The translations under genes and the position numbers were made by a program. Below the pieces are notes generated by a model. The model was not told the origin of the DNA. It saw only the letters and a program-made list of their open reading frames with translations, and ran no database searches. DNA of 64,000 bases, taken from NCBI GenBank assembly GCA_033439265.1, contig JAVTVX010000010.1, positions 3,534,001 to 3,598,000 on the forward strand, read 5' to 3'. Below, in pieces: positions 25,007 to 64,000 of this stretch (the first letter of the stretch is position 1; every line of letters begins with the position of its first letter). Source of the stretch: Dillenia suffruticosa. Taxonomy: Eukaryota > Streptophyta > Magnoliopsida > Dilleniales > Dilleniaceae.

Positions 25007-25015
25007 CCCTCTTCG
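25007..25015. repeat. Target-site duplication of MULE A, left copy
   Basis: CCCTCTTCG, identical to 31408-31416. Confidence 0.8.
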
Positions 25016-25019
25016 TCAG

Positions 25020-25103
25020 GTTATTTACCTAAATAGTGTACTTTTGAAAAAAAAATTACGCAAATAGCGTTATTTTTTTTTACTTCCCAAAATATCGATT
25101 TCG
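25020..25103 (+). repeat. Terminal inverted repeat of MULE A, left
   Basis: Pairs with 31321-31407. Shared blocks are GTTATTTACCTAAATA, ACG(C/T)AAATA(G/A)CGTTATTTTT, and AAAATAT(C/T)GATTTCG. Just inside is an imperfect palindrome, TTTCGCACTTTCAGAGTGC. Confidence 0.88.
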
Positions 25104-25265
25104 CACTTTCAGAGTGCAAAATCTTTTTTTTTTAATTTTTTGGTTTTTTTTATGATTTGTTTTTATTTGTTGGGGAAATTGAGTATCGCACTCCCTAAGT
25201 GCGAAACATGTTCTGCCCCCTCCCTACACCCACCTGGCCGTGCCCCTGCCCCAACCTACATACAG

Positions 25266-25410
25266 CACATGTCTCAAAATAGTGTTTTCAATCACCAATA
25301 TACATATACCAAATAACATCACCCATACTCCAGAATACTTGTCTGAAGATAGTGTTTTCAGCCACCAGTATATATATATCGAATACCATCAACCATACTC
25401 CAGAGTACTA
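25266..25410. repeat. 70-bp tandem duplication inside MULE A
   Basis: AGTGTTTTCA recurs at 25281 and 25351, and CCATACTCCAGA recurs with the same 70-bp spacing. It lies between the PMD stop and the left inverted repeat, where elements B and D also carry tandem repeats. Confidence 0.8.
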
Positions 25411-25664
25411 TATGAACAAAAGTACAGACTATTAAACATAAACAATAAAAATACGATAAATCAATAAAACAATATTTTGAAACGAAATCATCACGTAATG
25501 TTAATCAACTATTCTAAAATATGTAAGAAATATATAACAATAAGAAACCAATAAAGAAAATCACTTTTAAAATAAATGAAGGTAATGATTATAAAGTTCA
25601 AATTTAATACAAATCAAATGAGAAATGTATATTAAGTGCCGCAAGGAGGTCGTCCAGCATGACG

Positions 25665-27869
25665 TCATGGCTGACATCTCACGGGAATATGAACTGGCCT
25701 ACCAGGTACAGGTGGAAGTATATCGTATAACGGTATACCCTCATCCACCTCAGGAAATGCAACTGGAGGGACATCAACTGAGTATCGAGAACGACGACGT
25801 CTCCGCTCATAAACACTAAGTCATGGTGACTCCTCGTAAACACTAACTCGTGGCAGCTCATCAACATCGTCCATGCATATCGGAGTTGGAGTGGGGTAGG
25901 AAGACGATGGATCTAGCTCTGTCACCGCATCATAATCATCCACAACACCCGAAATATAAGGTATATCGAAGGAGTGTTTGTGCGCGAATGTCGAGGGAGT
26001 GGAGTCGTGAAATGGCACATAATCGATATACTGAAGTGCACACTATAACACATCTATGAACTATTCAAATCTCGGATCCACTCCCTCCTTAGCGAGTAGA
26101 TCTGATGCCATTAAGTGCATATTTTCCGACTCAAGATACTACAAAAGATAAAAGAAAATAAATGTTATATCAAGTATAGAAGAATAAATGGGTAGGACAC
26201 ATAAGATTAACTATAAAACATATATTGACTTACAAAATACTCCATTTGTGTCGCGGTCGGTCGGTATCCGTGGTGATAACGATGGATAGGAGATACAATC
26301 TATAAACGGGTGATCCAATAATACCACCGCATATAGTCAGATGTGGTTCTCGGCTCGTCGAAAGAGTCATCAACCTGCACAATATGAGATGTCTGGTTAT
26401 TTCATAGTTGCAAGTGTACAACATGTCTCCTCGTCCAATCACACCCTTGCCTCTCTCGTCTAGATAGACGATGTAACTACTGTGCGTAGGTACTAGTAAA
26501 GAAAAATGTTGCAGAAGTCCGAACTGTCTCATTACCCTCTGAGGGTAATGATACTCGACTACTTCAAAACAAATCAACGGAATCTCGGCACGCCATATAT
26601 CACTACCAACGAGACAAGAGGCAAGCAACGCCTTCAAATCGATATGCGAATATAATATCCAAATGAACTGAAAAAAAAATGATCATATTAATAAAATATA
26701 TATAAATTGAATGACATGTCAATAAAAGAAATTTATACCAACCCCAGTATCTCCCATATGATCCAACTAGTCCCTATACGTTCTAAGAACGAATTGCTCT
26801 GTGTGAATATAACAACGAGGGATATCCTAACTATGTATAAATAAATTAATGTCAACACTCCATATAACAAAGTTAAGATAGTTTAAATAAATTAAAAAAA
26901 AAGAACAAATCAACATTACGTACAGTAATCCTCGAGGCTCAACGGGCAGGTGTGGAGCAGATAGTATCGGATAAACGAAGTATATTTAATAAATGGGAAC
27001 TCTCTCTCATGCCCAAAACTAATAAGATAAAATATATTTAATAAATGACCAATTATTTATAAAAAAATATTATTAGAAAAAGGAATCAATTATAAAGTAG
27101 AGGAAAATACTTGTACAAGTAAAATAGGATCACAAATCTATCTAACTCAATCAACACAAGCCCGAAACAGGGATCTGTAAAGTGTTGCCAAGACAGCACT
27201 GTCCCAACTATACTGTCCTGCGCACTCTAAATCTCGTAAAAGCTCCAAATAACAAAATTTAACTCTCGATCCCGACTAATCCCCAAAAAGAGTACCCAAC
27301 AACTGCATAATACGACAACATGCATGGAATTCCACTAATATCACATCTGAGTCCTGCCAGAGGATGTGCATCAAGAAAATCCGTTATTGCCCGTATCTTA
27401 AGACGGTCTCCAAAAAATTCCTCCAGTGCAGAATAGAAACCCAACAAACCACGACAAATGTCCTGCCACTCAGCAATAGAACGGGAGTAATCTACTCCTA
27501 TAATCGCATCTCCATCTACAGGCAACCCCAGTAGGACTGAAACGTCTTGTAATGTAATCGTCGTTTCACCGACGAGTAAGTAAAAAGTATACGTCTTCTG
27601 TCTCTACCGCTCTACAAACGCGGTAATAAGAGTATGATTATGTTGAATGTGGCCACACCTGTATACACCATAAAACCCAACCCACAACAAAATCTCTTGT
27701 ATCCTAATATCAAGAGGTCGAGTTGCCCAAAACGCATGGTCCGAACATCGTACCTCTAGAGGGGTATCAGTGCCCGTCTTCTAGATAGACTCAGATCAAT
27801 GTGTGGCCTATAAGGTCAGGACACTAAGGTCCTGAGGGATGGAGTAAAGTCTGCAATAGTGTACTCCAT
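25665..27869 (-). pseudogene. Plant mobile domain (PMD, MAIN/aminotransferase-like) gene of MULE A, decayed
   Basis: The minus strand starts MEYTIADFTPSLRTL (27869). It then reads TTITLQDVSVLLGLPVDGDA and IIGVDYSRSIAEWQ (27490-27560), CAGQYSWDSAVLATLYRSLF (27180-27240), GSDIWRAEIPLICFEVVEYH with YPQRVMRQFGL (26500-26610), and an end with PEVDEGIPLYDILPPVPGRP and a stop at 25665. These are the successive blocks of the PMD family (MAIN, MAIL1 and their transposon relatives). Several stops occur, for example in the usual RW of the first block. AT-rich gaps near 27060-27110 and 26640-26760 look like introns, so exon borders are uncertain. Host PMD proteins help silence transposons and maintain meristems. 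The transposon-borne forms have no established function that I can state. Confidence 0.82.
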
Positions 27870-28009
27870 ATTTAAAATGATGAAAAATAAATAAGATTAA
27901 CATTAGTAAGTAGAAAAAATAAATGAAATGAACACATTAAATCATAACTTATGAAAATAATTAATAATATGCATAATATGATAACAATCAATTATTTATG
28001 TCAATCTTC

Positions 28010-30601
28010 TCAATCTTGTCTAACTCTCACTTGTAAACGAGTCATATTGGGGCAATGATGACGATTATGACCGTTTTCACCACATACCTTACAATGCTGC
28101 GTTCTTCTTATATCCATTTCGTTGTGTATCCGCATATTTCGAGATCTACCTGGTTGGTAATTAAATCGTGAGATATTGTGTACCAAATTAAAAGAAGTTG
28201 GAGGCCAATAGTCTTTGTGTGGAGGGGGATGAAATCTCCCATAATATGTTTGTTCAAAAGATTAACAACTATAGAAACTATCAATAAAAGTCCTAAACTT
28301 CCCGACCCATATCCACACAAACTCTTCATATATGTGAGTAAAGAAGTTTAAATATTGTATATTTTCCACATATACATGATGACTCGTCTAACATGACGGT
28401 ACGGTTGTTTTCGCCCCTTTCACCATGAAATCTTGTTATTATCTCAAACTTACCCCTAAATCTATCAAACGCAATGATGCGATAATATTTGGCTTTCTGC
28501 TCAATTCTCACTAATTTTTTCATAACATTTGTTGGCCACATTTTCTCGTCCCTTATACTGTTAGCTACTGCTTCTGGATTCTTATTAAATAATTGAATCA
28601 TACGATATAATGTCCCCTGGGCACATATAGTTATTGGTAACTTTCTTACACCCTTAAACACACCATTAAATGATTCCGATCGATTGGTGGTCATGTTACC
28701 CTATCTATACCCATCATTATAACACAAAGTTCATTTGTCGAGCGGAATCTCCATCAACCACCTATATGTCGCCTCGTTAAGTTCTTTGATCTTGTTCATA
28801 ACAATATAAAATTTTCTTATCTGTTTTTATTTGACGGCCTTATGCATCAACTATGTTAGCGGTTTATTTTTGAATCGCTAATTAAAATTAGCCTCCACAT
28901 GACACAAACAAAGTCTGTGATATATAAGTGGTGGTTGGGGATTAGCATTCCGTTCTATGGTTCGTATTATACCCGGTACTTTGTCTGATTTCAAACACAC
29001 CCCATGCCGATTACCAATAATGTGCACTATCAAGTTCTTCAAAACCAATCCCAACTAACAATTGTTTTCTCATTAATAATAGCAAAACACAAACGAACAA
29101 TGTGGTTAGCTAAATTAGTTCCAACGGCAATTAAAATTTTCTCTCTATATCTCCCGTATTGAAATGTGCCGTCAATACTAATAACCGGCTTGCAATGACT
29201 AAATGCTTTGATGCACGACTTGAAACCCTAGAAAACCGAGTGAAAGACCCTGTAATTATCCCCCGATAATTTAGTAAACCTCTACTGAACAACTGTATTA
29301 GGGTTACTTATCTGCACAAATCAAGAAACTATAGCAATAATATGTAAGAAGTCTCCCAATTCCCATACACTATTTCAATGGACTTTCGACGTCCCATCCA
29401 AGCCTTTTTATAAGATGAATTTATCTCGTACGTTGTCATATTCTCAACTATATCACATACTTTATAATCAACATTTTCTTTGATGTGACTTCTAATCATA
29501 CAACCCACCATGTTTGAGTCCACATTCGGATGATCTCCCAAAGGCAATTGAGGGAAACACGTGTTTTGCATTGAACCTCATAATTTCCCAAAACTGATGA
29601 CTTTTCTTCAGTCTAGCCCGAACATGCCGCAAACAATTATTTTCGTCATACAAATAACACCTTACAAACCATATGGTTGAAGAACTTTCATGGACTTTAA
29701 AGTATCTATGTTCTCGCATCGAGAACCACTTGACAACATATTGAACTTACTCTTTCGAAACAAAAACCATCCCAACTTTTAACTCAGATGTTTTATCATT
29801 ATCCCACGTTGGATGATCAGTTTCATTACCCTCATCAACCATCATGGTTCCTTCATCCATAGTGTATAAGTATGGTATCTCCTCTTCCCCTTCAACAACT
29901 CCATTTTCTTCCTCTTCCACGGCTTTATCTTCTTCATTACTAACATGCTGCTCCTCATCACTTGCATCCTCTAATTCATCAACAACAAATGCATATACCG
30001 GATCTGTCTCCTACCCCTCATAGGCTCTACTTGTACTAGTCCCCAAAACAATATTATCTGACAAAAATGCACCATATTGTAATCAATCATTTCCAATATT
30101 CTCACCCCTCAATAGCTCTGTGTAATAACCGAAATTTCTCTCATTACTATCACCCACTACTTCTGCACTGTTTTCAATCAGCGTTGAGCCATTCGGGACT
30201 TCTACCACATTTTCTCTACTCCAACTTGAGCAACCCACTGTGGGTGCATCAATAGGTGTACCCACAATTGCTTCTGTCTCTAAAAATGGTTTAACTGCCG
30301 TCAAACTTCCGATATATTTTGGAAGTGATAACACTTCCGATAAAAATTTATCATTCTCCACAGGTAATACACAATAAGAGAGAGATTGTCCAGACCATAG
30401 AGAATATCTACATGCAACGTTCAGTTTGAATTGTTTACAATCAAACCCACTTTTGCGATATAAGATTTTAATAAACTCCTATCATTTAATTCTGTTATAA
30501 CCACAACACCCATTTTTGGTCCAACACTATATCAATACTTATTCAACACTGCCAATTTCATCTCCCTAATAAAGTACCAATCTCACACGGCCGTCATCCA
30601 T
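28010..30601 (-). pseudogene. MURA-type transposase of MULE A, decayed
   Basis: The minus-strand start is MDDGRVRLVLY (30601). Recognisable parts follow: a ENDKFLSEVLSLPKYI block (30350); an acidic stretch; the MuDR DNA-binding-like block VVKWFSMREHRYFKVHESSS (29700) with FVRCYLYDENNCLRHVRARL; and the DDE-type core, PVISIDGTFQYGRYREKILI (29180), holding the first catalytic Asp. The second motif reads GNRHGV, with Asn where MULEs usually have Asp. Next are MTTNRSESFNGVFKGVRKLP (28690) and a SWIM finger, CICGKYTIFKLLYSHI, whose third Cys is Tyr. A C-terminal CCHC knuckle, CKVCGENGHNRHHCP (28060), ends just before the stop at 28010. Many in-frame stops separate the parts, so it cannot encode a working transposase. 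Confidence 0.88.
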
Positions 30602-31320
30602 GTTTTTTTTATTTCTATCTACAACAGTAGCGGGTCGAAGAAGAACCCTAAATTAAACAAAATAAATAAAACAAAATCCTAAGTTAAAGAGACAAACCTT
30701 AAAAAAAAGAAAGAAATGCTGCTTAAATATCTTGTCATCATCATATAATTTCTTAGTCTGCCAAAAAGAAACATGAAAATCACAAGCCTTTGAATCCTAC
30801 AACATATTCTTCGGTACTAATATATCTAAGGAACCATGCACTTTTATCTAACACAGTCCATGACAAAGTAATTGACAATGAAATTAGGGTTGAAGAATCC
30901 TAATTCGGACAATGAAATTAGGGTTGGAGAACACTAACTTAAACAATAGATAACCTTAATTTGGATAACACAAAACCCTAAAATAATATCCATGCATAAT
31001 ATGACAATAGAGGACAGAGCAGAGGCAAAATTAGGGTTCAGTCTACACGTTACCTTGGATGTTCTTCACGGTTGGAGAAGATGTGAGGAGATCAACCTTC
31101 AGAGAAGATGAGAAGATGCGAGGATGATTTTCGCCGCGATGCAGGAGACAACAACCAAAAGAGAAAATGAATAAGCAGAATGCGAAATATGTTTCGCGTT
31201 CTAAAGTTATGTCCGTAAGTTTCACACTTTCAGAGTACAAAACAGGAATTCAAAAAAAAATATTTAAAAAAACATAAAAAATTTCAAAAATGATAAACTT
31301 AATTGTGTAGTTTAAAAATA

Positions 31321-31407
31321 CGAAATCAATATTTTAAGAAGTAAAAAAAAAATAACGTTATTTACGTATTTTTTTTTTAATAAAAAGGGGTTATTTAGGT
31401 AAATAAC
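31321..31407 (-). repeat. Terminal inverted repeat of MULE A, right
   Basis: Reverse complement of the left repeat with scattered changes. The last 24 bp, including flank (31387-31410), are also almost a perfect palindrome on their own. Confidence 0.88.
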
Positions 31408-31416
31408 CCCTCTTCG
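31408..31416. repeat. Target-site duplication of MULE A, right copy
   Basis: CCCTCTTCG directly abuts the terminal inverted repeat. Confidence 0.8.
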
Positions 31417-31727: not shown

Positions 31728-31805
31728 AACACCAACAATTTTTTCCCCTCCTAGCCTCTATAAATAAATTCAACAATTTCTCAAGTATCTCAAACTCATT
31801 CAATC
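31417..31805 (+). promoter_or_regulatory. Promoter and 5' leader of the acetylornithine aminotransferase gene
   Basis: Squeezed between MULE A and the ATG. It contains two pyrimidine microsatellites, (CT)n at 31532-31581 and 31701-31727, and a TATAAATAA box at 31759-31767. The box is only about 40 bp from the ATG, so either the leader is very short or transcription starts elsewhere, for example at the CT tracts, a common feature of plant core promoters. Confidence 0.6.
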
Positions 31806-34800
31806 ATGACTTCTTTCACCATGTTCCTCAACAACTCAGTTTCAATTTCTCCGGCAAGCGATCTCCGCCGTCAGTTCAATCTTATCAACGGAAGAGAGAA
31901 CTGCGAATTCGGAGGTTTGAGAAGGGGAGTCAGTGCGTGTCTTAGCGTGGACGTGAACGCACCTGATTCGGGGAAATTAGGGTTGGGAGGGGGAGGAAGT
32001 AAGCAAGTGATGGAGGAAGAGGGGAGGGTTCTTGTGGGGACATATGCACGGAATCCATTGGTGCTCGCGAGTGGCAAGGGTTGTAAATTGTACGATACTG
32101 AGGGAAGAGAGTATTTGGACATGACGTCAGGGATTGCTGTGAATGCTCTTGGGCATGGTGATCCTGATTGGGTTGGGGCTGTTACTGAGCAGGCTCACAA
32201 GTTGGCTCATGTTAGCAATGTCTTTTATTCTATTCCTCAGGTATTTTTTTTTTTATTTTGATTTTTATCTTAATTTTAATTTAATTTTTTTTTAAAATTT
32301 TGATGGCGCTTTGTGTTTTCCTATGTGGGTTTATACGAGGCATGCAATTTTAAGATTTTTCTCTGGTTATTGAAGATAATGCTTGAGCAGAAGTGTATTA
32401 ATTTGTTTAAGCATTTAACAAATTTAAATACATTAAAGAGAGGAAATCCTGCTTAGATTTCTGATGTATCGTTTCACCTTATGGTGTTGCGTTTGCAAAT
32501 GTCGGCACCAAAGATTATTGAGAAATGAGAACCATCTTGGCGTTGATTTCATATACTTTATGAATGATTGAGATTCAGGAAGTAGTTTCCAAATTATAAG
32601 CACATGTTACATTATTATATAACATATATATCCTTTGAATTCTCATCTTTTTAAGCATCACAATTTCAACAGTATAGTTGAATTTTGTAGAAACCCATTT
32701 TAGCATTTAATGTATTTTAATTAAACAAAGGCTTAGCACAATGAATGTATTCCGTTTTTCTTCTTTATAAGTAAAGATAGTGGAATCTATCATCAGTGGT
32801 ACTTCAATTTCAATAAAATGGTGAAGCATGATTATTAAGGATGTTACATTTTGCACCTCCAAAATGTTATATTTTAGGACTGTGCAGTGAAAAGCTGTAA
32901 AAAGAGGTTGTTTTCATGCGTGGGAGATGGTAACATGCTGAAATTAGTGTGTGGGGCCCAGAATAAAGTTGTTTTTTGTGATCCTACTGTAATTAGGGTC
33001 ATTATTCATGTTGGGATATACTGATGCGTGTAACATCTGGAAAGGTTAGAACCACTAGATGGTAGCTGAATTTAGTTTGGACTTTGCCGTGAACTCTAGA
33101 TTTCAGTGGAGTTAATCTACAAATGCAGGGTTTATGGAGTTAGCACGTGGATCGAGGTGCGATATTAAAATTTGTCCTTATGGGGAAAGCCTTTGAGCCT
33201 GTGTAATGACGTCAGCTTATGTGTCTGTCAGTGGCCAAAATTATATGAGTAATTTGGCATGTGATTCCGTGGAAGCACCAAATATTGAGAACTCAGGTTC
33301 TCATTCTTCTTGTTTCAAGCTTTTTCTTTTTTCTCACTTTTCCTCTTCCACTGTTTCTACACTGGTTTCTGTACCATCTAAGTTTAGATTGTGTTCATTA
33401 GTAGGAGTCATAGCGTAGGGATGCCAGTTTGAGTTGGCAGAGTCATAAATTGTTGCAAACATGACAACTTAGAAACTTGGCATAGAATTATGAAAGAGAA
33501 AAGCATTTAAATAGTTATTTGGTTATATAGTGATTGATGTCCACAAAGACTAGCTGCTTTTTTCAGTAAATCACACTGTGAGGCTAAGTGGAATTGAATC
33601 ACATATTCACTTATCCAGGAATCATTCTTAATGCTTGCTAATGTTTCAAGCACTTCTGAATCAAAAATTAAGATCTTCACATGACCAGCATTAAGGCGAA
33701 AGTTTCCTCCCAGCACCATGCAACTACAATGCTTCTTGGACCTGTCTTCTGTCTGAGGCATATAGCGTCATCTGCTGGGTAGGATTTGGACTTAATAGAA
33801 AGGGTATTTACCATTTCACAGCTGTTCTTCAACAACTACCAGTTGCATAACATGATCACTGAACTAAACTAAGAATTGTATAGGAAGGAGAAGGAATCAA
33901 CATTCCTTCTTGTCCTGATTGGGGGCATTGTTACTTTGTCCTTGCGCTGTGTACCTGCATCCCTTGTAGTTTGAGTAGTATTGCTATCCCTGTTTCCATT
34001 CTTCTTGTTTTTGTTTACCCTATGCTCGGAACCAAATGAAAAAGGAGTTTTGTTCATTTGAAATGAACTGAATATGGAGTTCATTTGCAAATAAAAGCAT
34101 GTGCTTGAAAGCAAAAGGTAAAATGTTGGTTATTTAGCTCCTTGTTTTTGTTTTTCTTGTCACTTTTAAAGATTTCTCATCTTTGGGAGATTTTGTATTT
34201 TCTTTCCTTCATCTAATATAATTCTCTTTTTTTATCCAAAAAAAAATGTGAATCCCCATTCAATTTTCTCTGCTTGGAACAACAAAATGTAAAACACCGA
34301 ATTCATTTCTAAATATTGTTATTTACTAAGTTACCCTTTATCTTCATTAAAAAATATGATAACTTGAAAAATAAAAGAAAAATCTCTACATGCTTGTAAA
34401 TTTATCAAAATAAAGATTTTCATGGCAGCATTTAAAACAAAATTAATATCAAATAAGCATTCAGGAAAGAGAGATTCTTATACAAAATTATGGGGGGAGA
34501 GAGATAGAGTCATATGTTTTCCTTTGAAAAGAAACTGGGTTCCCTAAAAAAAATAAAAAATAAAAAAAGGTTTTCCCTCCCTATCAAATTAGGATAATAT
34601 GGTAATAAGAAATTTTATGTAAATTAGGAAATTCTTGTGGAGTTCATTTGCAAATTCAATCTTTTTTTGCTAATTTGGAAATTCATAATTTTTGTGGAGT
34701 TAGAAATTGGAAATCAAGTTCAGCCATAAGGATTTTAGCTGTATACAGGGTCATGTCCATCTTCTCAAGCTTTCCAAATCAGTTTGCTGGCAGATACTGT

Positions 34801-37800
34801 GATTGTTAATCACATTCTGTTCTCATATAATTCCTGCATGGTACTTTTAGTTCCTGCAATATTTTGATTAAGCCGTTTGTGTCCAGCCCCATGTTTGAAA
34901 TTTATGTAAAAAATCTAATGTTTATCATTATTTTAGAAAATTAGAACTTTTTGGGCACTTCCCAAATACATCTTAGTAGTAATACTTTATATAGTGATTG
35001 TAAGCGACAACAACAAAAAACTGAGCCTTAATTCCAATATTTGGAGTCGGCCATTTGAGAGACAAATTTAGAAAAGATAGAGATAAAAAAATAAATATTT
35101 AAAATATGTTGGTTTAATTTGTGCGGATTTTTCTACGCCACTCATTCTTATCCAAAATTATTTTCTTGTCTAAACTCTTAAGTATCACGTCTTTACGGAT
35201 AACTTGCATATAAGTTTTCAACGGTTTATATTTACGTTTTACTAGATCTCATATATTTAAGTTCTTGATTTTTCTAACCGGTGCATCTTTGGGCCTTCTT
35301 TGCACATGACCGAGTCATCTCAGACGACACTCTTGTATCTTATCCACAATTGAACTAACTCCTAAGTTGTTATGAATCTCTTCATTTCTAATTTTATCTC
35401 TTCTAGTTTTGCTACACATCTACCTAAATATTTTTATTTATGTTATAGTTATTTTTTGTTCTTGTTGTTGTTTAATAACCCAACACGTAATACTATATAG
35501 TGATTGTATTGTAAATATAATCAAAGTAATTGATTATTTTAGAATCTTACTAGAATCTCATATTCAAGAGGAGACATATTATCATTTATGTAGTATAAGC
35601 TTAGTTCCTTAATTTGAATATGCATAGGGGAATTTTTTCAAATAAGGTCGTTTTATGGTCTTTTTTTATGATAGGCATTAATTTATAGTATTGTACTTGA
35701 GAAAATTATTTTAGTTTTATGTCCTAACCATTTTGTGTCATGTTTTCTGAAATTTTGGGTTTTCACCATATCTGAGTCCTGTATCTATATCTGTGCTTTA
35801 TGGTTGGACTGCCTTCAGTTGTTTTTGTGACTTTTTTGCCTTAGATATTGTGGGGCCATACTTGTGCAGTTTCCTGTGTCTCGTGCTCAGGATATAAGTA
35901 TGGAAATGACCCTCCTTTTTGGCAAGTTAAAAGTTATATTTGATTCGAAATTACTTATTGTAAAGACTAGGCAGTGGAGAGAAACTTTACTCAAGGTGAC
36001 TGTTGTTTTTGTCACTAATCCTAGGTCTTTATATCCTTAATTCTGAGAATACTTGTCCTTTTATTCTCTGCTTCATCATTGACTTTAATAATGATGGATT
36101 TGGTTTATTATGCATCAAAGAATGTTAATGATCAGGAAAGCCCGCAGCTTTGATGGTTACAACTTGGAAAAAAAATAGGAGCCATCAGGATATAAGATCC
36201 AGCAATTATGCAAGAACTTTGTACTTATTTTGCTGTTCCTTTTCTGGATGTGTCTAGATATGTGTGTCATAGGAGATGTTGCTTGCGATGCCTCCACCTA
36301 TTTGACACCTTATTATTACTACTAGTCTTGGCTTTTCTCTTCACTCTGGAGCATCAGGTCAACCTATAGACCACTTCCAAGTAAATTGCAATATGTCCCA
36401 GCTAGCTGATTCTCCTGGTCTGTTTTTTAAAGACTCACATGTTACAAGAACTAAAGCCAAACAAAAGGCAACCTGTTTCAGTGTTGCTTTGCTTCTAGAG
36501 ATATTGCCATGATGTTATCTGTTATTGCTACCATTATCACTCTAAATGAATTCACTTTTTGCAACATCGTGGATTGCATGGACCTGATCCAGGTAAATAT
36601 AATCTGTCTCGAATTGTGATCTCTGCCATTTCACAAACAAGTCACATATCATACAATATAATTGCCCACCCAAATGGTTACCTCTGGTTTGAACTACATT
36701 TGTACCCACATTAACAAAATAATCCCCACCTGAGGTGAAACCCTGAAGACTTACAGGTTCAGGCATGCTACTGCCACTTCTCAAGGTAAAGTAAGCATGA
36801 GGGCCATAGAGTTTAATACTTGAAGCCAGGCTAATGCACCATAAAAAGTGAATGCCTGTGGGAAGGCCAACCTACTATATAGTAGCATGCAAATATACAT
36901 TTACATTACATTTATTACAACACAGTCCGGAAAGTTATTACACAAACGCAGATCATAATGAAAATGCTGTTGGCATCTCAACCTCAATTTTTGGTTCTCA
37001 TTACATCCTTATTGTGTCAATTGGTTATAGGTTGTAGGCAATTGTTTGTTTTTGTTGTTACTAAATGGAGAATTTCTTGTTGTAGGTAGAGCTTGCCAAA
37101 CGCCTTGTGGCCTGTTCTTTCGCTGATCGTGTCTTTTTGACAAACTCTGGAACTGAAGCAAATGAAGCTGCAATAAAATTTGCAAGAAAATTCCAAAGAT
37201 TTTCACATCCGAATGAGAAAGATCCAGCAACAGAGTTCATTGCTTTTACCAACAGCTTCCATGGGAGGACCATGGGTGCCCTTGCATTGACAAGTAAAGA
37301 GCATTACCGATCACCTTTTGAACCTGTCATGCCTGGAGTTACTTTCCTGGAGTATGGCAATTTAGAAGCTGCAAAAGAACTAATTCAGAGTGGCAAGTTT
37401 GCTGCAGTATTTGTGGAACCCATTCAAGGCGAAGGTGGTATTCATAGTGCAACAAAGGAATTTTTATTGTCCTTGCGTAAGGCTTGTGATGAAGCTGGCT
37501 CTCTATTAGTCTATGATGAGGTGGGTTTGTTTGTGATTTTAAAGAGACATACTGCACCTGGACATGGTCTTTGTCAAAATATTAGATTAGTTTTAAATTC
37601 TGATAATTGTTGTTATGCATTTGCATGGTGGAGCCTTTAATTCCACAGCCCAATTTAGTAGCTGAATTTTATGATGGCAATCATATATCTTTTTTCTTTA
37701 TTATCTTGACCCTAAATCAGCTTCAATGATTTCGTTTCCAGGTCCAATGTGGGCTAGGCCGATCTGGTTATCTCTGGGCACACGAAGCCTATGGAGTATT

Positions 37801-38275
37801 CCCTGATATAATGACGCTTGCCAAGCCTCTTGCTGGAGGTCTTCCCATTGGAGCCGTACTAGTGACTGAAAGAGTTGCTGCTGCCATGAAGGCTGGGGAT
37901 CATGGTAGCACGTTTGCGGGTAGTCCATTAGTTTGTCATGCTGCCATTGCTGTTTTAGATAAAATCTCAAATCCTACTTTCTTGGCTGGTGTGGCAAAGA
38001 AAGGGCAGTATTTTAAAGAACTGTTAGTGCAGAAGCTAGGAAAAATTTCACATGTCAAAGAAGTGCGAGGCATGGGGCTTATTATTGGTATAGAGCTAGA
38101 TGTGTCAGCCTCACCCCTGGTAGATGCATGTCTGGATTCTGGCCTACTAATCTTGACTGCTGGCAAAGGGAATGTCGTCAGGCTTGTCCCACCATTGATT
38201 GTATCAGAGCAAGAATTGGATTATGCTGCTGATATTCTCCACAAATGCATGCCAGTATTGGATCAAAGTATCTGA
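31806..38275 (+). CDS. WIN1: N-acetylornithine aminotransferase, plastid; 3 exons, 467 aa
   Basis: Exons 31806-32240, 37086-37520 and 37742-38275 (435+435+534 nt) join in phase with GT/AG borders. The enzyme converts N-acetylglutamate semialdehyde to N-acetylornithine, the fourth step of plastid arginine synthesis, using PLP. Motifs: [11 protein letters not shown] at 166-176 (phosphate binding), [20 protein letters not shown] spanning exons 2 and 3 with the PLP-pyridine Asp at 289, and the Schiff-base Lys318 in [17 protein letters not shown]. The first 55 residues are Ser/Arg/Asn-rich and suit a chloroplast transit peptide. Length and wording match Arabidopsis WIN1/TUP5 (457 aa). The first ATG opens the frame; a second lies 5 codons on. 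Intron 1 is 4.8 kb. The 5' end lies close to MULE A, and a decayed PGG exon lies tail-to-tail downstream. Catalytic residues look intact. Confidence 0.95.
32241..37085 (+). other. Intron 1 of the acetylornithine aminotransferase gene
   Basis: 4.8 kb and AT-rich. It holds a LINE-like tail near 34160-34250 (TTATCCAAAAAAAAAT) and a dispersed repeat at 35005-35420. The rest (32260-34140, 35430-37080) shows no recognisable gene. Confidence 0.7.
35005..35420 (-). repeat. Dispersed plant repeat, probably the 3' end of an RTE/LINE or SINE
   Basis: Begins CGACAACAACAAAAAACTGA, followed by CCTTAATTCCAATATTTGGA and GTCGGCC. Downstream are CCACTCATTCTTATCCAAAA and CACATGACCGAGTCATCTCA. These phrases recur in interspersed repeats of many dicot genomes, usually as the complement of a TTGTTGTTG-tailed retroelement 3' end. 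Assignment is by remembered pattern only. Confidence 0.55.
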
Positions 38276-41852: not shown

Positions 41853-42440
41853 TGTTATAATGCTAAAAATGCACCACAAGTTCTCAGAAATCGGGAGGAA
41901 TTCAATCTGTAAACTATTGCAACTTCAATGAAGACAATCAACAGAATATTGGGGCTTCTGAAATGGGGAAACTCAATAATGAGATAATCTAAGAATGGGA
42001 TTTATCTCCTCAATTCATCAGAACTTAGGCAGAAAAGAAGTAAATTCACATCAAATTCAAGCAAAATGAGGATTTTCTCAGCCGTTGAAGCTGTGCTCAG
42101 GTTAATGTGCAGAGAAGACGAGAGTTAAATCTAGGAAAGAGGGTGTCACATGTTCACAGGATAAGTTAAGATGGGTATCGAAAGATTCATCAATTCAGAT
42201 CCGATTGAAGCAGATTTGAATCAAAATAAATGAAAGAAGACAAAATTGCTTACTGGGTCTTGAGTTTCAAGAAAAACCCTATTGAAGCCCTCGTCAAAAG
42301 TTGATAAATTATGCAAGCCAACAGAGAAAGAGACTCTGCTTGTCCCCAACAGAGAAAGAGACTCTGCTTGTCCTCTCTGGTCTGCTTCTTGCAGAAGAGA
42401 GAGAGAGAGAGTGTGTGTGTGTGTTTGATTGAGACTGAAA
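41853..42440 (-). promoter_or_regulatory. 5' leader / proximal upstream region of SCL3
   Basis: Contains a perfect 28-bp tandem duplication (42318-42345 and 42346-42373) and GA and GT microsatellites at about 42397-42424. A 5'-UTR intron is possible, but I cannot place it. Confidence 0.45.
42318..42373. repeat. Perfect 28-bp tandem duplication upstream of SCL3
   Basis: Two identical adjacent 28-mers beginning CCAACAGAGAAAGAG and ending CTGCTTGTCC. Confidence 0.97.
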
Positions 42441-53457: not shown

Positions 53458-53949
53458 TGGGTTTTTTTTTTTTTTTTTTTTTTATACCAAAATAATATAT
53501 ATTTTTTAATTTAAATAGTGTTTTTTTTTTCTTTCTAGAAATAGTGATGTTACGATTCCAGATTGCGACATTCAAATATCTGTCTCTCTTCCTTTCAATA
53601 CAAATGAAGCGGTTTCTCTTTTTTCCTTTTAACTGTTACACCTTTTTATTTTTTTTTCCTCTATTCTCAGTTTTACAAGCATGAAAAAATCATAGCCAAA
53701 CGTAGAGGTTCACTTAGATTGTAAATGGTATTTGTCCGGTGAAGTTTATTAAAGTGTTATTTATTAAAATATTATTTTTTTAATTAAAATTATTATTCAA
53801 TCATTTTTTTTAAACTATTAATTTCGCACGTTCAAAATACAAAATTAGTTTTTTTATTTTTTTTGTAATGCGTTTATTTTTAAAAAAATTGATTTCATGA
53901 TTTCACACTCCGTGTGTACAAAATCAAAGAAGCCACACATTCACACGCA

Positions 53950-54085
53950 TAGCTCATGGCCCGTTGACCTGTGGCTCGTGGCTCGTGGCTCGTGGCTCAT
54001 GGCCTGGTGACCTGTGGCTCATGGCTCGTGGGTCACTGCTCGTGGCTCATGGCTTGTGAGTCGCCACTCATGACTCGTGCCTTGT
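53950..54085. repeat. GGCTCGTG-type minisatellite
   Basis: About 15 copies of a 7-8 bp GGCTCGTG/GGCTCATG unit, in an otherwise AT-rich region, near the 3' end of element B downstream of its PMD gene. Confidence 0.9.
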
Positions 54086-54384
54086 CGCTTGTGTTTCTTA
54101 GATTATTGTTCACCTTATTCCATATCAAAACACCATTAATAATTCACACTAACTTACAAAATAAGCAAAAAGATCATCAACTCTACTTCATACCAAATAT
54201 CCATACTCCAACTCAATATCACACTAAATAAGTATACTCCAAGTAACTATACTTCAAAATACCACCAAATAATTATATTCCAAAATACTACCAAATAATC
54301 ATATTTCACGCTACAATATAACTTTAATCCTAAACAAATATATCCAACCCAAACACTTTCAACCAAAACACAATCAAACAACTT

Positions 54385-54930
54385 CAACCATGACCACCAC
54401 CAAATTTTAACTAAACAAATATCATCTCCAAAACCTTCAATATCAAGACAACATACACCAATCACTAAAACTCAACCAAACAAGTTAAACCATGGGTACC
54501 ACTAAATTTTAACCAAACAATTTCAACCAAATATACATTATCTCTAAAATCTCCAATATCAAAACAATATATATCAACAATAAAAATATACCAAATAAAT
54601 TAAACCATAGACATCATTAAGTTTTAACCAAACAATTTCAACCAAATATACATTACCTTCAAAACATTCACTATCAAAATAACATATACCAACAATAAAA
54701 AAACAATCAAAGAAATTAAATCATGAGCACCACCAAACTTTAACCAAACAATTTCAACCAAATATAAATCACCTCCAAAATCTTCATTATCAAAACAATA
54801 TACACCAATTAACAAAACACAACTAAGCATCTTCAACCATAATCAACACCAAATTTCAATCAAACAATTTCAACCAAACATATATCATCTCCAAAACTTC
54901 CGTTATCAAAACAATATTGACTAAACAATT
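54385..54930. repeat. About 116-bp tandem repeat, roughly 5 diverged copies
   Basis: The phrase (A)ACCATG/A...CACCAAA recurs near 54387, 54489, 54604, 54720 and 54836. Each is followed by AACCAAACAATTTCAACCAA or a variant, then TC(A/T)CCTCCAAAA and TATCAAAACAATAT. Copies have diverged by point changes. Confidence 0.88.
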
Positions 54931-55089
54931 TATAAACGTTTAAGTGATATAAAGAAAGAAATTATAAGAAATTTTGTTAACAAAAAATTATAAATAGAAA
55001 TTGAAATTACTATTTACAAAATTTAAATATAATATATATTAAATACTAAACCTACACTAAGTGCCACAAGGAGGTTGTCCAATATTGCA

Positions 55090-57125
55090 TCACGGTTGAC
55101 GTTTGATGGGAATACAAGCCGGCCTACCAGACAGAGGTGGAGGTGTATCATATAGCTATGTACCCTCATCACTCTTAGCGAATAAGACAACAACCGTCCC
55201 GACATCATCGAAATGTCGACGATAACGACAATACCGCTGGTCAACATTAAGTTGTGGAGATTCAGTTGATCAATATTGTATATAAATGCCAGAGTAGGAG
55301 TTGGATACAAAGATAACAGAGGTATGTCCATTGGCTCATCATAAGTATTTGCAGTACGAGAAGTGGAAGGTATTTTCATCGACTTAGTAACTCTCTGTGT
55401 CGATATCAAAGGACAGTCACCCTTAGATAGCGCATGTCCAACTAGCTGAAGTGAACACCATGACATATCTATGAGATATCTAACTTTAGGATCCATTCCT
55501 TACATTTTAAGGATGTCAGATGTCAATCGAAATTCCTACTGATAACAATGCGCAAGGCTCCCAATGTATATGCGGGCGATTTGACAATACCACGCCATAT
55601 AGTCACCTGTCATCATCGGCTCACTGAAAATCTCCTCTCCTACAACGATATGATATCGACAGTTAGTTCGCAACTGTAAGGGTACCGTATGTACCCTAGT
55701 CCAATCGTGTCCATGTCTCTTACATCGATCAGTTTGGTGCAACTCCTAGTCGATTTGCATAGATAAATGAATACTCTATAGTAAACCGGACTATTTTATA
55801 ACCCTTTTAGGGAAATGAAAATGAACGATTTCAAAACAGATAAAGGGGACACTAACACGCTATATATCGTAGCAGATGAGGTAATACGCGAGCAACGCCT
55901 TCAGGTCAGCATACGAATATGACATCCAAACAAACTGAAAAAAACGAAGAAAAATGATGTTAGTTTGATCCATAGTAATAAAAGTGGCTTTCAAAACCAA
56001 AAATGAAGTTTATACTCACCCGATCCTTACTTATATGATCGAGCTGATTTCGATAAGTTTTAATAACAAACTGACTTGTATGTATATAACTATGCGGAAT
56101 ATTCTAACATTTACAAATAAAACAATGTTAATGTGGAATTATACAAAATCAAGAGAATAAAAAAAAATAATACGAATAAATAAAGTAAACACAACGTAAG
56201 AGATACTCTGGGGCTGCTAAGCATGTGCGGAGTAAAGGGTATCTGATTAACGATATAGTGTTTAATCAGAGAAAAATGGGCACTTCTCCCATACCCAAAA
56301 CTGATAAGAGAAAAAAAGATTGAATAAATGAATGTTATAGTATGTAAATAGAGTATTATTAAGTAAAAATAATACATCAAATAAAGATACAATACATGTA
56401 TAAACAAGATTGTACCACAAATCTGTTTAACGCTATCAATAGAAATCCAACACATGGTCCTGTAAAGTGTTGTCAAAATAATATTACCACAACTATATTG
56501 TCTGGCACAATTAAGATCTCATATAAACTCAAAATACATGATCTTCACTTTCGATCCAAACTGGTCCCCGAAAAGACTACCCAGCAGTTGCATAATGTTA
56601 CCACGTGCGTTAACTCTGGATCCAAAGAATGTGAGTCAAGAAAACTCGCGATTTCTCGTAATTTAAGATGGTCTCCAAAAAGTCCTCTGGACTAGAAAAG
56701 AAAACCAAGAGACTATGATATAAATCCTGCCACTTAACAATAAAACAAGTCGAGTCCATTCCAATAACCATATGTCCATTAACAGACAATCCAAGAAAGA
56801 CCGAAATGTCATGTAATGTAATCGTAATCTTACCATTTATTAAGTAAAAGATATGAATCTCCTATCTCCATTTCTCAACAAATATAGTAATAAGCGCATG
56901 ATTGTGCTAAATATACTCACACCTATAGAGGCCATAAAGTCCACCAACAACAAAATCTCCTAGACCCTAATATCAAGGGGTGGAGTAGTGCAAAACTCAC
57001 GACCAGAATGACGTGCCTCTAAAGGATATCACCACCAATCCCTCATATAGACTGAGATCAGTGTGTGGATTGTAAAGTCAATACACTAGGGTCCCGTGGG
57101 TTCAGAGAAAACTCTAAGAGTAGTC
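55090..57125 (-). pseudogene. PMD gene of element B, decayed
   Basis: Aligns block for block with the PMD of MULE A. The tail near 55100-55500 reads SLYPTPTLAFIYNIDQL, then a GRPACIPIKRQP-like end with a stop at 55090. The middle segments (55560-55760, 55850-55920, 56560-56800) match the corresponding nucleotide stretches of A. The start is unclear and stops are more numerous than in A. Confidence 0.72.
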
Positions 57126-57289
57126 TATAACTATGATCACTAGAAAATAAAAAAAAAATAAAAATTCCAAATCCTCAAACACAATATGTATGATCACATA
57201 AAATAATAAATTTTGAAAATTATTGAACCATAATAATTGAAGAATTCAACGATACAATTAAAATAAGCATATGATAGGACATAAAAATT

Positions 57290-59839
57290 TTAGGCTTGTC
57301 TTACCCTCTCTTGCAATCGAGACATAATTGGGCAATGGTGACGATTATGCCCGTATTCACCATAAGTCTTGCAACCTAAGTTCTTCTATCCATTTCATAA
57401 TGGATCTGTGTAATTCGTGGTTTATCTATCTGGTTATTAAGATATGAAATATTGTGTAACAATGTGAAAGAAGGAAGGACTAATAGTCATTGTGTAAAGA
57501 ATGATGAAATTTGTTATCATATGTAAGCAGCAGTGATTGACACTATGCAGTCCGTTTATAAGTGTCATAAATTCACACCCCATGTTTGCATAAACTCTCG
57601 ACATATGGGAGTAAGTAAGTTTAGATATAGTATATTTCTCACAAGTACATGATGAGATATCTATAATTACGGTGTGGTTGTTCCCACCCCTCCCACCATG
57701 AAATCTAGTTATAACCTTATACTCCTCTATATATCTATTAAGTGCAATGATGTGATGAAATTTGGATTTGTACTCATTTTTAATCATATTTTTCATCACC
57801 AATATTGACCACATCTTGCCTTCCTTCATATTGTTAACTATTTTATCTCAAATCTTATTAAAAAATCTAACCATATGGTACAATGTCGTCTGTACACATA
57901 GTTATTGACAGTTTTCATGCACATTTAAATACACCATTAAATGACTCCAACGGATTGGTGGTTATTTTCCCCAATCTATGACTCCCATCATAACCCATGT
58001 CCATTTGTCGAGAGAAATCTCCATTAACCACCTATATGCCGGCTTACTAAACTCTTTGATTTTGTTTATCATGGTATTAAATTTTCTAATTTTTTTTGCT
58101 CGGTTGCCGTATGCATTAACTCCATTAGTGGCTTGTTCTTAATTCGCTGGCTGAAATTAGCTTCTATATGGTGTAAACAAACTCTGTGATATACAAATGG
58201 TGGTTAGAAATTACTATTCCTCTCTATGGGTTGCATTATACCAGGAGCCCTATTCGATATCAAGCATACTCCAGGCTAATCACCAATGATGTGCACTATC
58301 AAATTCTCCAAAAATCATGCCCAGCTCACAGTGGTCTCCTCATCAACCTATTCATTCTAATAATAATTAGAATTTTTTCCTATATCTCCCATATTGAAAT
58401 GTCTCATCAATATTAATCACCGGCTTTAAATGCCAAAATACATTGGTGTATGGTTTGAAAACCCAAAAACCTATGTGAAAAACCCTCTCATTAGATCTGA
58501 TACTTTAGTAAGGCTCCACTCAACAATAGTTTTAGGACTACTCATCTGCACAAATCTATAAATTGAGACAACAATATGTAAGAGGTCCCCCAATTACCAT
58601 ACACTATTTTTATAGATTTTCAACTTTTCATTCAAGCCTTTTTGTGTAACAGATCTACCCCATACAATCTCATATCATTAACCATATCACATACTTTATA
58701 GTTAACAATCTCTTTTATGTAGTTTCAAATTAAATCATCCTCCATATTTGAGTTCATATTGGGGTGATCCTCCAAATGTAATTCAAAGAAACAAGTACAT
58801 TTTGTTTTCAACCTTGTAATTTCCCAAAGTCCATGACTTTTTTTTTGTTTTGTCCGAATATGTCACAAACATTTATTCTCACAGTACCATAAATACCTCA
58901 CAAACCATATGTTTGGAGAACTTTTGTATACTTTAAAGTACCGTACTTCTGCGTTAAGCAGCACTTGACAGCATGCTAAACTTTCTCTTTGGATTTGAAG
59001 ATCATCCCAACTTATAACTCTGAAGTGTGATCATTATCCCATGTTGGACGGTTATAGTCATTGTACTCATCAACCATCATGGTCTCTTCTCCTATAGTGT
59101 GTAGGAATAGTATTTCATTTTCTTCTTCAACAACCTGATGTTCTTCAACTACAATATTTAGCTCATCATCACTTTCACCCTCTGATTTCTCATCATCAAA
59201 TGATCTATCTCCTCCCCTTTACAAGGTCTACTGGTACTAGGTTCCCCATAATCACTTGCAATAGGCATACCTGATTCATGATGACTAGCCAAATCAATAT
59301 CATTTGAAATGAATACCCCATACTGTAACCACTCATCTCCAATATTCTCACTTTTTAACATCTCTATGTAAAAATGAAAATTTGTCTCATCCCTAAAATC
59401 AGGAAAATTTTGAGTCCCAGATGAGCTATCTAGGTTGTTTGACATATTTTCTCTATCCCAACGTGAACAATCGACCATGGGTAGACCAAGAGATGTACTC
59501 ATAATTGCTTTTGGCTCTAATAGTAGTTTAACTGCCATCAAACTCGGGATATATTTGGAGAGTGACAATACCTCCGACAAGAATTTATCATCTTCCACCG
59601 GTAATGCACAATAAAAAAGAGACTGACTAGATAAAAAAATATATTTACATGTCACATTTAGTTTAAATTGTTTTGAACCAATCTCACTACTGTAATACAA
59701 AATTTTTATAAACTCCTACAATTTAATAGTGCTATCAACCACAACACTCATTTTTTGACCCACACTATACCGATACTCATCTTCGACTCCACCAATTATA
59801 CCCCCAATAAAATACTAGCTTTACACGGTTGTCACCCAT
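57290..59839 (-). pseudogene. MURA-type transposase of element B, decayed
   Basis: Starts MGDNRVKLVFYWG (59839), with DKFLSEVLSLSKYIPSLMAV near 59580. The second catalytic motif reads GD-stop-PGVCL, so the Asp lost in copy A is still present here. The SWIM finger is CTCEKYTISKLTYSHM (57630), with Tyr for the third Cys as in A. The end is a zinc knuckle with its second Cys changed (CKTYGEYGHNRHHCP, 57340-57390), then a stop at 57290. Multiple stops make it inactive. Confidence 0.85.
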
Positions 59840-60925
59840 ATTGTTTTTTTCTAACAATTACAACAATAACAAATACATTATCAGCAAAATCAGAACTAAT
59901 TTTAACACAACATCAACAGCAGTGCATCAACAACAACTATAATAAAAACCCTAGAGCTAACTCTAATAGAGTGTTGACAACAAATAAAATACAAACCCCA
60001 CATTTTAATGTATAGTGAATTTATAGTTAATTAATAGTGATTTTAATTGATTTATAGTGATTTAGTTGCTAATATTGCTACAAATATAATGCAACAATCT
60101 ACAAATATATTGAAACAATCTTTTTTTTTCTCCAAATATATTTGCATCAAAATTCTTTTCTTTTTTTTTTGAATGCAAACCCTAGAGCCATCTCTCAACA
60201 ATCTTTTTTTTTTTTTGTGAATGCAGACCTTAGATTCAAACAAGCAAAGCATAAAATAACATAAATGATTTGTAGAGCATGAGAATAAACTCTAAATTCG
60301 TAGGAAACCCTAGAGAACAAACACTAGATTCGTAAAAAACCCTAACATATATTCGAATAACTCTAGATTAGGTCTAACATATTGGTGCATCAAACAAATT
60401 TTGCACATATAGGAAAAAATAGAGAGAGAGAGAGAAGAAATTACCGAGTGGATAGGAGGAGGAGAGAACTTCTTTTCACAGAATGGGAAAGAGAGAACTT
60501 CTTGTTGCAAAGCAAAGCAGTAGCGGAGAAAGCTTCTAGTCACGAAGGAGGTTAGGGTTGGCTAGGGCTCTATCATGGAGAGAGCACAGGCAAATGGTAA
60601 TAATGACGATAGAGAATGAGAGAAATATGTTTAAGTGTTAGGATTTAGGGCTTTTAGCCAATGGTTTTGCACTCATAGAGTGTGAAATATTTTTTTTCAA
60701 AACAAAAATTAACGCATTACAAAATTAAAAAATAAAAAATAAAAAATAAAAAATAAAAAACTGATTTCGCATTTCGAGAGTGCGAAATCAATACTTTGAG
60801 AAAGGAAAATAACAATGACAGTGTAGTAATTTTAATTAAAAAACAATATTTTTGTTAAAAACCCTTTATTAAACCTCTTTTTGCTCACAAGCACCTTTCA
60901 CTTGTACCCTCTGTCTCTCTCTCTC

Positions 60926-61959: not shown

Positions 61960-62480
61960 TAAATTCAATCAAAAACAAATATTGACGATCAAAATACCAA
62001 AACACCAACAACCATGATCAACTAATACACCAAAACACCAAGAACTAATAAAATATCAAAATACCAACAATCAAACAATTTCAACCATGGCCAACCAAAA
62101 TACCAAAACACCAAAATATCAAAATATCAACAATCAACAAAATATCAAAACACCAATAGTCAAACAATCTCAACCATGGCCACCATACCAAAACACCAAT
62201 AACCAACAAAACATCAAAACACTAATAGTCAAATAATCTCAACCATAGCCACCAACACGCCAAAACACCAACAACCAACAAACATTAAAACACCAACAGT
62301 CGAACAAGCTCAACCATGGCCATCACCAAAATACCAAAATACCAACAATGAGCAAAACATTAAAACACTAACAGTCAAACGAGTTCAGCCATGGCCATCA
62401 CCAAGACACTAAAACACCAACCAATACGCTAGAATACCAAAACACCACCAACACAACCAAATAACGATATTCCAAACAAC
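61960..62480. repeat. About 70-90 bp imperfect tandem repeat in element D
   Basis: The unit contains CAAACAATCTCAACCATGGC and CCAAAACACCAA. Copies start near 62083, 62172, 62241, 62312 and 62387. It lies between the PMD remnant and the left end. Confidence 0.85.
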
Positions 62481-62639
62481 AGATATCACCTCCAAAACTA
62501 AAAATATGAAAACAACATACATCAAAACAATTTATAAATGTTGAAATCAAATAAAGAAAGAAATTACAAAAATTTATAATTAACAAATAATTATGAATAA
62601 AATTGGAAATTATAATTTACAAAGTTTGAATGTAATACA

Positions 62640-63520
62640 TGTAATATGTGTAATCTAGAGTAAGTGCCGCAAATAAATCGTTCAGTATTTCATTGCGGCT
62701 AATGTCTAGTGGGAACACGAACCGACCTACCCTCATCACTCTCAAGAAAGTTAACTATAATAGTCTCAGTATCCTTTGAATGTCAACGACGATGACGGCG
62801 GTAAACATTAAATCGTGAAGGCTTGCTTGATGCAACGTCGTCAATATCGTCAATAACAGGTGTAAATGTCGGAGTAGTAGTAGGGGTCGGATACGAAGAC
62901 AATATAGATATCTTCATATGCTCATCATAGGCACCCGCAGTACTAGAAGTGGAGGGAACTTCTGGATTAGTAGTTCTCTGTGTGAATGTCGAAGGACAGT
63001 AACCCTCAAGTGACATATATCCAAATCGTTGGAGTGTCTCCTTTGTCCTATCTCTGATATAACCAACTCAAGGATCTATTTCTTCCACTATGAGGATATC
63101 GGATATTACTCAATAGATATTCTCAAGACTATATAGCACTGCATAAAAACAATTGTAAGTACAAAAATATTACAAACATAATAAAAGAAATATTAAACGA
63201 TAAAGTTATTTTGACTTACCACGTACGCCATGTCGTCTGTTGTCTGTTGTCTGCCGAAATCCCTATTGCTACTGATGTGTAGGACTGCCAATCAACATGC
63301 TGGTGATTTGACGATACCAAGTCATATATTCACCTGTTGTTGTGACATTACCATAACACTCCTCTTTGTAATAATATGGTATCGACGGTTATCCCATAAT
63401 CGTATGGGTACCGCATGTTCCCTCGTCCAATCTCAACCAGCTGTCCCATGTCGATTAGTCCGATACAACTCCATGTCAGTTTGTATGGGTAAAGGAATAC
63501 TCTATTGCAAACTGGACTTT
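62640..63520 (-). pseudogene. PMD gene remnant of element D
   Basis: Contains ILSSYPTPTTTPTFTPVIDD (62880) and the C-terminal part. At 63270-63520 it has the region matching 55540-55800 of B (WYRRLSHNRMGT-like stretches on the opposite strand of the same alignment). The N-terminal two thirds of the PMD gene are missing. Confidence 0.7.
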
Positions 63521-63539
63521 CTTGTATGCAAATCGAACT

Positions 63540-64000
63540 TTCATCTGGTTCATCACAATATCAAATTTTATAATTTTTCTTTTCTTGGCTGCCTTATGCA
63601 TTAACTCCGTCAGCGATTTATTCTTGAACCGCTGGTTGAAATTAGTCTCAACATGCCACAAACAAAGTCTGTGATACACAAATGATGGTTGGAGATTAGA
63701 ATTCCTCTCTTCATCGACAATAGCAAAGCACAAAAAAAGAATGTGATTAACCGAATCAATTCCAAAGCAATAAGAATTTTCTCCCTATATTTTCCATACT
63801 AAAATGTCCCATCAATATTAATCACTAGCTTACAATGTTTAAATGCATTGATGTATGGTTTGAAGACTCAAAAAACTAGGTGAAAAACCGTATTATTAGA
63901 TCCCGACACTTCACTAAATCTACAATTAATAACAGTTTCAGGAATACTCAATTGCACAACAACCATAAACTAAAGCAACAATGTGTAAGAAGTCTCTCAA
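63540..64000 (-). pseudogene. MURA transposase remnant of element D
   Basis: The frame holds FAIVDEERN, VYHRLCLWHVETNFNQRFKN and KKRKIIKFDIVMNQM, matching the MULE transposase core after the DDE domain as in copy A (YHRLCLCHVEANFN). It breaks off at about 63540, where PMD-related sequence begins. SWIM and zinc-knuckle regions are absent. Confidence 0.78.

Follow-up and report, generated by a model that had tools for sequence, protein, structure and literature searches.

The plant mobile domain (PMD) was first described with a Mutator-like element (MULE) in rice. Grass and Amborella MULEs were later seen to carry it as well, and their PMDs have been explained by the capture, twice, of a PMD-C gene from the host (Ikeda et al. 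2017, PMC5418596). In Arabidopsis the silencing of many transposons and the expression of MORC1 depend on MAIN and MAIL1, which bind PP7L (PMC7156037, PMC9899485), and counter-silencing by transposon PMDs has already been proposed (PMC8616336). Here we describe element A, which occupies positions 25016–31407 of a 64,000-nucleotide stretch of contig JAVTVX010000010.1 (positions 3,534,001 to 3,598,000, called the window below), and its relatives in the 596-Mb assembly that contains the window. Element A is a genuine MULE and belongs to a two-gene type, of which it is a dead copy. The PMD gene of such elements is a long-time companion of the transposase gene MURA, directly downstream of it on the same strand, as judged from co-occurrence, partly matching trees and constraint, and we are confident both of the two-gene element and of the constraint on its PMD.

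What these elements share with the grass and Amborella MULEs is a MULE transposase and a PMD in one element. The published ones are described as fusion proteins (PMC5418596), whereas in a whole copy elsewhere in this assembly (L031) a stop divides MURA from PMD, each of which has its own open frame, and AACATTTCAG, which resembles a splice acceptor, stands immediately before the PMD ATG; splicing may join MURA to PMD at this locus, or may supply the PMD transcript with an exon from upstream. A second difference is that two lineages are present here in one genome, one of them with many near-identical copies. VANC, the product of another extra gene of a DNA transposon, is a different protein from PMD. 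Anti-silencing is reported for VANDAL21 with VANC21 (PMC8616336), whereas for the present elements we infer it. Ty3/Gypsy retrotransposons, which are another class of element, likewise carry a PMD (PMD-A, cited in PMC5418596).

The first-pass annotation of the window had stated that PMDs are linked to transposons in general, and the MULE-borne PMDs already published (PMC5418596) bear this out. Both a MULE with a PMD and the counter-silencing idea are in the literature; the new content here is the constraint analysis and a pair of PB1-like-PMD genes. Eudicots are said to hold mainly genic PMD-C (Nicolau et al. 2020, PMC7156037), so if this genome is that of a eudicot its MULE-borne PMDs depart from that picture. 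In tea, phased small RNAs arise from 175 loci at PMD genes (PMC10673657), from which we infer that transposon-borne PMDs may be common in other plants.

Element A and its two genes

The landmarks of element A are as follows (TIR, terminal inverted repeat; TSD, target site duplication).

25007..25015, no strand: left TSD of A, CCCTCTTCG, exact 9 bp
25016..25164, plus strand: left TIR of A, in which the match begins at 25019/25020
26230..27871, perhaps to ~25680, minus strand: broken PMD gene of A (PF10536), its start placed by likeness to relative L025
28010..30601, minus strand: broken MURA transposase gene of A (Pfam PF10551, with homology to L025 and L031 MURA)
31252..31407 (to 31407/31408), minus strand: right TIR of A, which pairs with the left TIR
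31408..31416, no strand: right TSD of A, CCCTCTTCG, exact 9 bp

Inverted ends and a 9-bp flanking repeat had been reported for A from its sequence alone, and both are real: the repeat is exact on the two sides, and the ~150-bp TIRs are 75% identical over 156–157 bp and align at 94 bits, where the best of 200 random 200-bp pairs drawn from the window reached 32.8 bits. The likely first ATG of MURA is at 30601, and the MULE transposase domain PF10551, the only transposase-type Pfam domain matched in A, lies at 29039–29227 on the minus strand (E 8.6e-7, above the curated cut-off). PF10536 matches the same strand twice, at 27259–27603 (E 1.7e-13) and 26230–26682 (E 3.8e-11), both above the curated cut-off, and the gap between the two matches is at the position of an intron in L025. 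The order on the minus strand is MURA and then PMD, as had been noticed earlier. Stops and frame breaks are present in both genes (for example, 13 stops in a 348-codon piece of MURA). Just inside the TIR of A is a palindrome, TTTCGCACTTTCAGAGTGCAAAA, a weaker version of those in lineage 2 (see below).

Pairing of MURA and PMD in two lineages

Two MURA-PMD lineages are found among the loci opened. Lineage 1 contains A, copy B of the window, L024, L025, L026 and L028; lineage 2 contains L002–L017, L019, L020, L031–L038, L040 and, more distantly, L027, and its MURA is 26–50% identical to the fragments of A. In the genome searches 110 of 1529, 150 of 897, 52 of 2499 and 117 of 1536 candidates were scored (the last for PF10536, giving 125 matches), so that all counts are lower bounds and an unpaired locus does not mean absence of the partner. 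For lineage 1, 119 MURA matches merged to 107 loci, and at 67 of these the first PMD exon follows within 4.5 kb on the same strand, mostly at 1.1–1.7 kb; it was found at none of the 107 either downstream on the opposite strand or upstream, and about 0.06 loci are expected by chance. The second PMD exon, searched to ~5.5 kb, adds ten loci and brings the count to 77 of 107 (the opposite-strand control covers the first exon only). In lineage 2 a PMD follows 35–1567 bp downstream on the same strand at 46 of the 52 scored MURA loci, and upstream at none.

These figures uphold the view that MURA and PMD form a stable unit, and they extend it well outside the window. Intact copies, which the first-pass annotation had proposed to look for, do exist: the whole MURA query is open at 99–100% identity at 15 lineage-2 loci, every one of which has a PMD match downstream, and at 11 of the 52 loci MURA and all 347 PMD positions are open. 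No intact relative without a PMD was found among the scored loci. Nor does the PMD appear to have been inserted separately, since inverted repeats of its own were not found above background (random pairs from the same sequence) in the 600-bp flanks of any of seven copies (A, B, L025, L031, L032, L033 and L035).

Whole elements of both kinds were mapped outside the window. L025 is an A-type copy, 84.9% identical to A over the main 5.3 kb, with the same ends and gene order, and its flanks (GATGAGTGG and GACGAGTGG) make a TSD with one mismatch. All copies of this lineage seen here are broken. Lineage 2 has many near-identical copies and has been recently active; four (L031, L032, L033 and L035) were mapped end to end at 8054, 8177, 7967 and 7749 bp, with ends 82–90% alike over 142–151 bp and with exact flanking repeats in L031 and L032. 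L031 matches PF10551, PF03108 (MuDR) and PF04434 (SWIM), all above cut-off, and its PMD matches PF10536 across all 347 positions (E 8.8e-88). We note that the L031/L041 ends near C20:1159577 and C20:1167630 carry near-perfect palindromes inside the TIRs (e.g. GTCGCGGGTTCAACCCGCGAC and pairs of the AACGCGGAA type), which might play a part in the binding of MURA or in small RNAs made from hairpins.

The window itself holds two further copies.

53745..53753, no strand: left TSD of B, TTTATTAAA, exact 9 bp
53754..60864, minus strand: copy B, which is of A's lineage and more diverged, 69% identical to A over 4.2 kb, with its own TIRs and TSD
56610..56861, minus strand: PMD piece of B (PF10536 E 5e-6; 26.4 bits, below the cut-off of 34.9)
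60865..60873, no strand: right TSD of B, TTTATTAAA, exact 9 bp
62469..64000, minus strand: copy D, internally deleted (junction at ~63526/63538) and running past the window end

Both had been said to keep the MURA-PMD arrangement, and this holds for B and fails for D. The inverted ends of B score 67 bits (TIRs of A and B are ~130–157 bp long and 72–75% identical), its TSD consists of A and T only and is weaker evidence than that of A, and its MURA pieces are recognised by homology, no MULE-type transposase Pfam domain being present in the pieces scanned. D lacks ~2.25 kb that correspond to B 55800–58054, that is, the 3' part of MURA and the PMD core; its MURA piece (from 63538) directly abuts the C-terminal end of PMD and the part downstream of it (63526 and below), and PF10536 matches none of the three pieces of D scanned. 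The internal deletion of the PMD core rules D out as a third two-gene copy.

Constraint on PMD and its possible role

Nonsynonymous and synonymous differences (dN and dS) were estimated by the method of Nei and Gojobori with broken codons skipped; ratios at dS above 1, near saturation, are rough. Between L031 and L027 dN/dS is 0.227/1.45 = 0.16 for PMD (426 codons) and 0.145/1.12 = 0.13 for MURA (837 codons). Between the subgroups of lineage 1 (A and L025 versus L024, L026 and L028) it is 0.25–0.35 for PMD and 0.31–0.47 for MURA, and within them 0.45–0.68 and 0.50–0.71, respectively. On these codon comparisons PMD looks about as tightly constrained as the transposase.

Fragments of host genes are a known cargo of MULEs (Pack-MULEs; PMC8616336), and the PMD might likewise be passenger DNA, a transduplicated fragment carried by chance. 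We consider this very improbable: the PMD frames are open at full length in many copies, the ratio of 0.16 at a dS of 1.45 (one pair) argues against it, and the same arrangement recurs at 123 loci (77 + 46) in two lineages. Chance insertion or carriage is rejected on three grounds, namely co-occurrence, dN/dS and the absence of repeats belonging to PMD itself in the seven copies tested. The evidence indicates that in two MULE lineages PMD is a second gene under constraint and no stray passenger.

Several observations pull the other way. Among the matches scored there is no PMD at 30 of the 107 lineage-1 and 6 of the 52 lineage-2 MURA loci; all six of the latter carry stops in MURA, and the one locus opened among the 30 (L047) ends inside MURA. 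Conversely, 83 of 150 lineage-1 PMD matches have no scored lineage-1 MURA upstream, and 79 of the 125 PF10536 matches are without a scored lineage-2 MURA, a minority of these 79 having been opened. The flanking repeats are imperfect in L033 and L035, two of the four lineage-2 copies mapped. The key dN/dS values come from the single L027/L031 pair at dS above 1, and those among young lineage-2 copies, which have few changes, range from 0.30 to 2.08, a spread that is expected of copies decaying after insertion. Finally, the AlphaFold model of PMD (15 rows) had a mean pLDDT (predicted local distance difference test score) of 45 and was unusable; no solved PMD relative was found in the PDB, where the single match had E 0.83.

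MURA of this family acts on the inverted ends to cut and paste the element, and here it would move the element in this way through the TIRs. PMD would most likely be an accessory protein that helps the element to persist. As a MAIN/MAIL relative it could mimic, or compete with, the host PMD/PP7-type complex, and this competition would weaken silencing of the element; counter-silencing by this route is the mechanism we favour, put forward as a tentative reading of the domain's relationships. About as likely on present evidence, and equally tentative, is that PMD serves transposition alone, in DNA or target-site binding or in the handling of MURA, and is unconnected with silencing by the host. 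MURB in maize is thought to be a transposition accessory, and the constraint on PMD, close to that on MURA, its fixed position and the lack of any other significant Pfam domain in the protein would suit such a part; its closest characterised relatives, on the other hand, act in silencing and gene control (PMC7156037, PMC9899485). The many near-identical lineage-2 copies are material on which the counter-silencing idea can be tested.

Origin of the pairing and the PB1-like-PMD genes

Trees were built from sequences of this genome only. In a reduced PMD tree, from which five of the 22 rows were left out (B, L034, L036, L037 and L040), lineage 1 (98/99), lineage 2 (100/100) and the genes L045, L021 and L022 (100/100) form separate clades, and L023 joins lineage 1 (94/94). 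A and L025 pair as sisters whether the tree is of PMD or of MURA. We take L045, L021 and L022 to be MAIN/MAIL-like and L029 and L030 to be PMD-B-like, provisional labels guided by exon structure, and the element PMDs group with the former three against the latter two in this single-genome tree. The comparison with host MAIN/MAIL genes suggested at the outset, which covers this genome's MAIN/MAIL-like genes alone, separates these clades. Host MAIN, MAIL1 and MAIL2 (PMD-C) have the PMD domain in common with the elements, which share a start motif with L045 and L021 and, in lineage 1, the place of an intron; the host genes differ in standing alone (PMC7156037). With all 22 rows lineage 2 groups with host genes (82/87), and the order of the two MULE lineages relative to host genes shifts with the rows used. 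A single MULE-PMD clade is not rejected in the approximately unbiased (AU) test (p-AU 0.376, or 0.467 with L039 added). Because the branching order is unstable, one and two origins of the pairing are indistinguishable from this genome.

Each lineage may have captured a host PMD gene independently, the conclusion that Ikeda et al. drew for grasses and Amborella, and we regard this as only a little short of an even chance. The two PMD groups are separate and of unsettled order relative to the MAIN/MAIL-like genes, and the lineage-2 PMD runs through 347 positions uninterrupted by an intron, whereas that of lineage 1 breaks after LLVQ, where L021, L045, L039 and L023 have an intron. Yet gene order and strand are alike in both lineages, a common MULE-PMD clade stands in the test above, and L023 and L039 contain a domain that is also present at the N-terminus of MURA.

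These last two genes, for which no close copy was found among the matches listed, are built of a MURA-N-terminus-like domain joined to a PMD, and neither has a transposase core in between. In L023 (C11:19836964 on; L023:3965–5896) the domain is in frame with PMD and there is no transposase core; the first exon is open for 373 residues, with the N-terminal domain running straight into PMD, and three further exons with ordinary splice sites follow by reading of the sequence. The PMD has a frame problem near its C-terminal end, and the gene may be shortened. Its N-terminal domain is 44–49% identical to the lineage-1 MURA N-terminus. The next best match of L023 by score is 62% identical (lineage 1) and none exceeds 66% among the matches listed; 107 of its 113 other matches have stops, and the remaining six are partial or are L039. 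A single inverted pair, 18 nt at 78%, was found in its flanks. Against the lineage-1 PMDs L023 gives dN/dS of 0.10–0.11 in four pairs (at dS 2.7–3.2) and an undefined value in the fifth. Its neighbour is presumably a DRM-type DNA methyltransferase-like gene.

L039 (C13:1589561 on; L039:3562–6640) reads as seven exons, with one GC donor and an unsure first-exon join, and combines a PB1-like exon, which is homologous to the N-termini of MURA, with a PMD and with the PMD N-terminal exon motif (DPGP...) in two copies. Its N-terminal domain is 29% identical to lineage 2 and 31% to L023, and among 139 matches listed none but itself exceeds 37%. The longest inverted pairs in its region are CT/GA repeats, with short ones of 20–27 nt besides (25 of 28 pairs listed). 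The N-terminal domains of L031, L039 and L023 are alike by BLAST; L031 (15.0 bits) and L039 (20.3 bits) score below the PB1 cut-off (PF00564, 23.6 bits), and L023 has no PF00564 match at E up to 1, so we term the domain PB1-like only. L045 (C18:22222852) was considered as a duplicate of L039 and rejected, as it looks MAIN/MAIL-like.

From their domain make-up L023 and L039 look like products of domestication of a MURA-PMD element by loss of the transposase core, and genes of this kind would be expected if such elements can give rise to host PMD genes. If older host PMD genes arose likewise, MAIN and MAIL would descend from a gene that served a MULE as an accessory, and the published account of capture would be turned round; we think this reading, with traffic also running from MULE to host, rather unlikely, and the single-genome tree does not settle the direction of movement. 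The PB1-like-PMD genes nevertheless provide a concrete handle on it. No report of PB1-PMD genes or of this element family was found in a literature search that had most subscription journals outside its reach.

The PMD genes L021 and L022, which lie on different contigs, are very similar to each other, and so are L029 and L030, likewise on different contigs and with a kinase-like neighbour in common. This suggests that large segments, or the whole genome, were duplicated fairly recently.

Two other genes were seen in the window. An acetylornithine aminotransferase gene starts ~350–400 bp from the right end of A, and a 494-codon open frame lies beyond it.

31764–38275, plus strand: acetylornithine aminotransferase gene, open frames (PDB match E 5.6e-36)
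40440–41924, minus strand: 494-codon open frame, which we take to resemble the GRAS protein SCARECROW-LIKE 3

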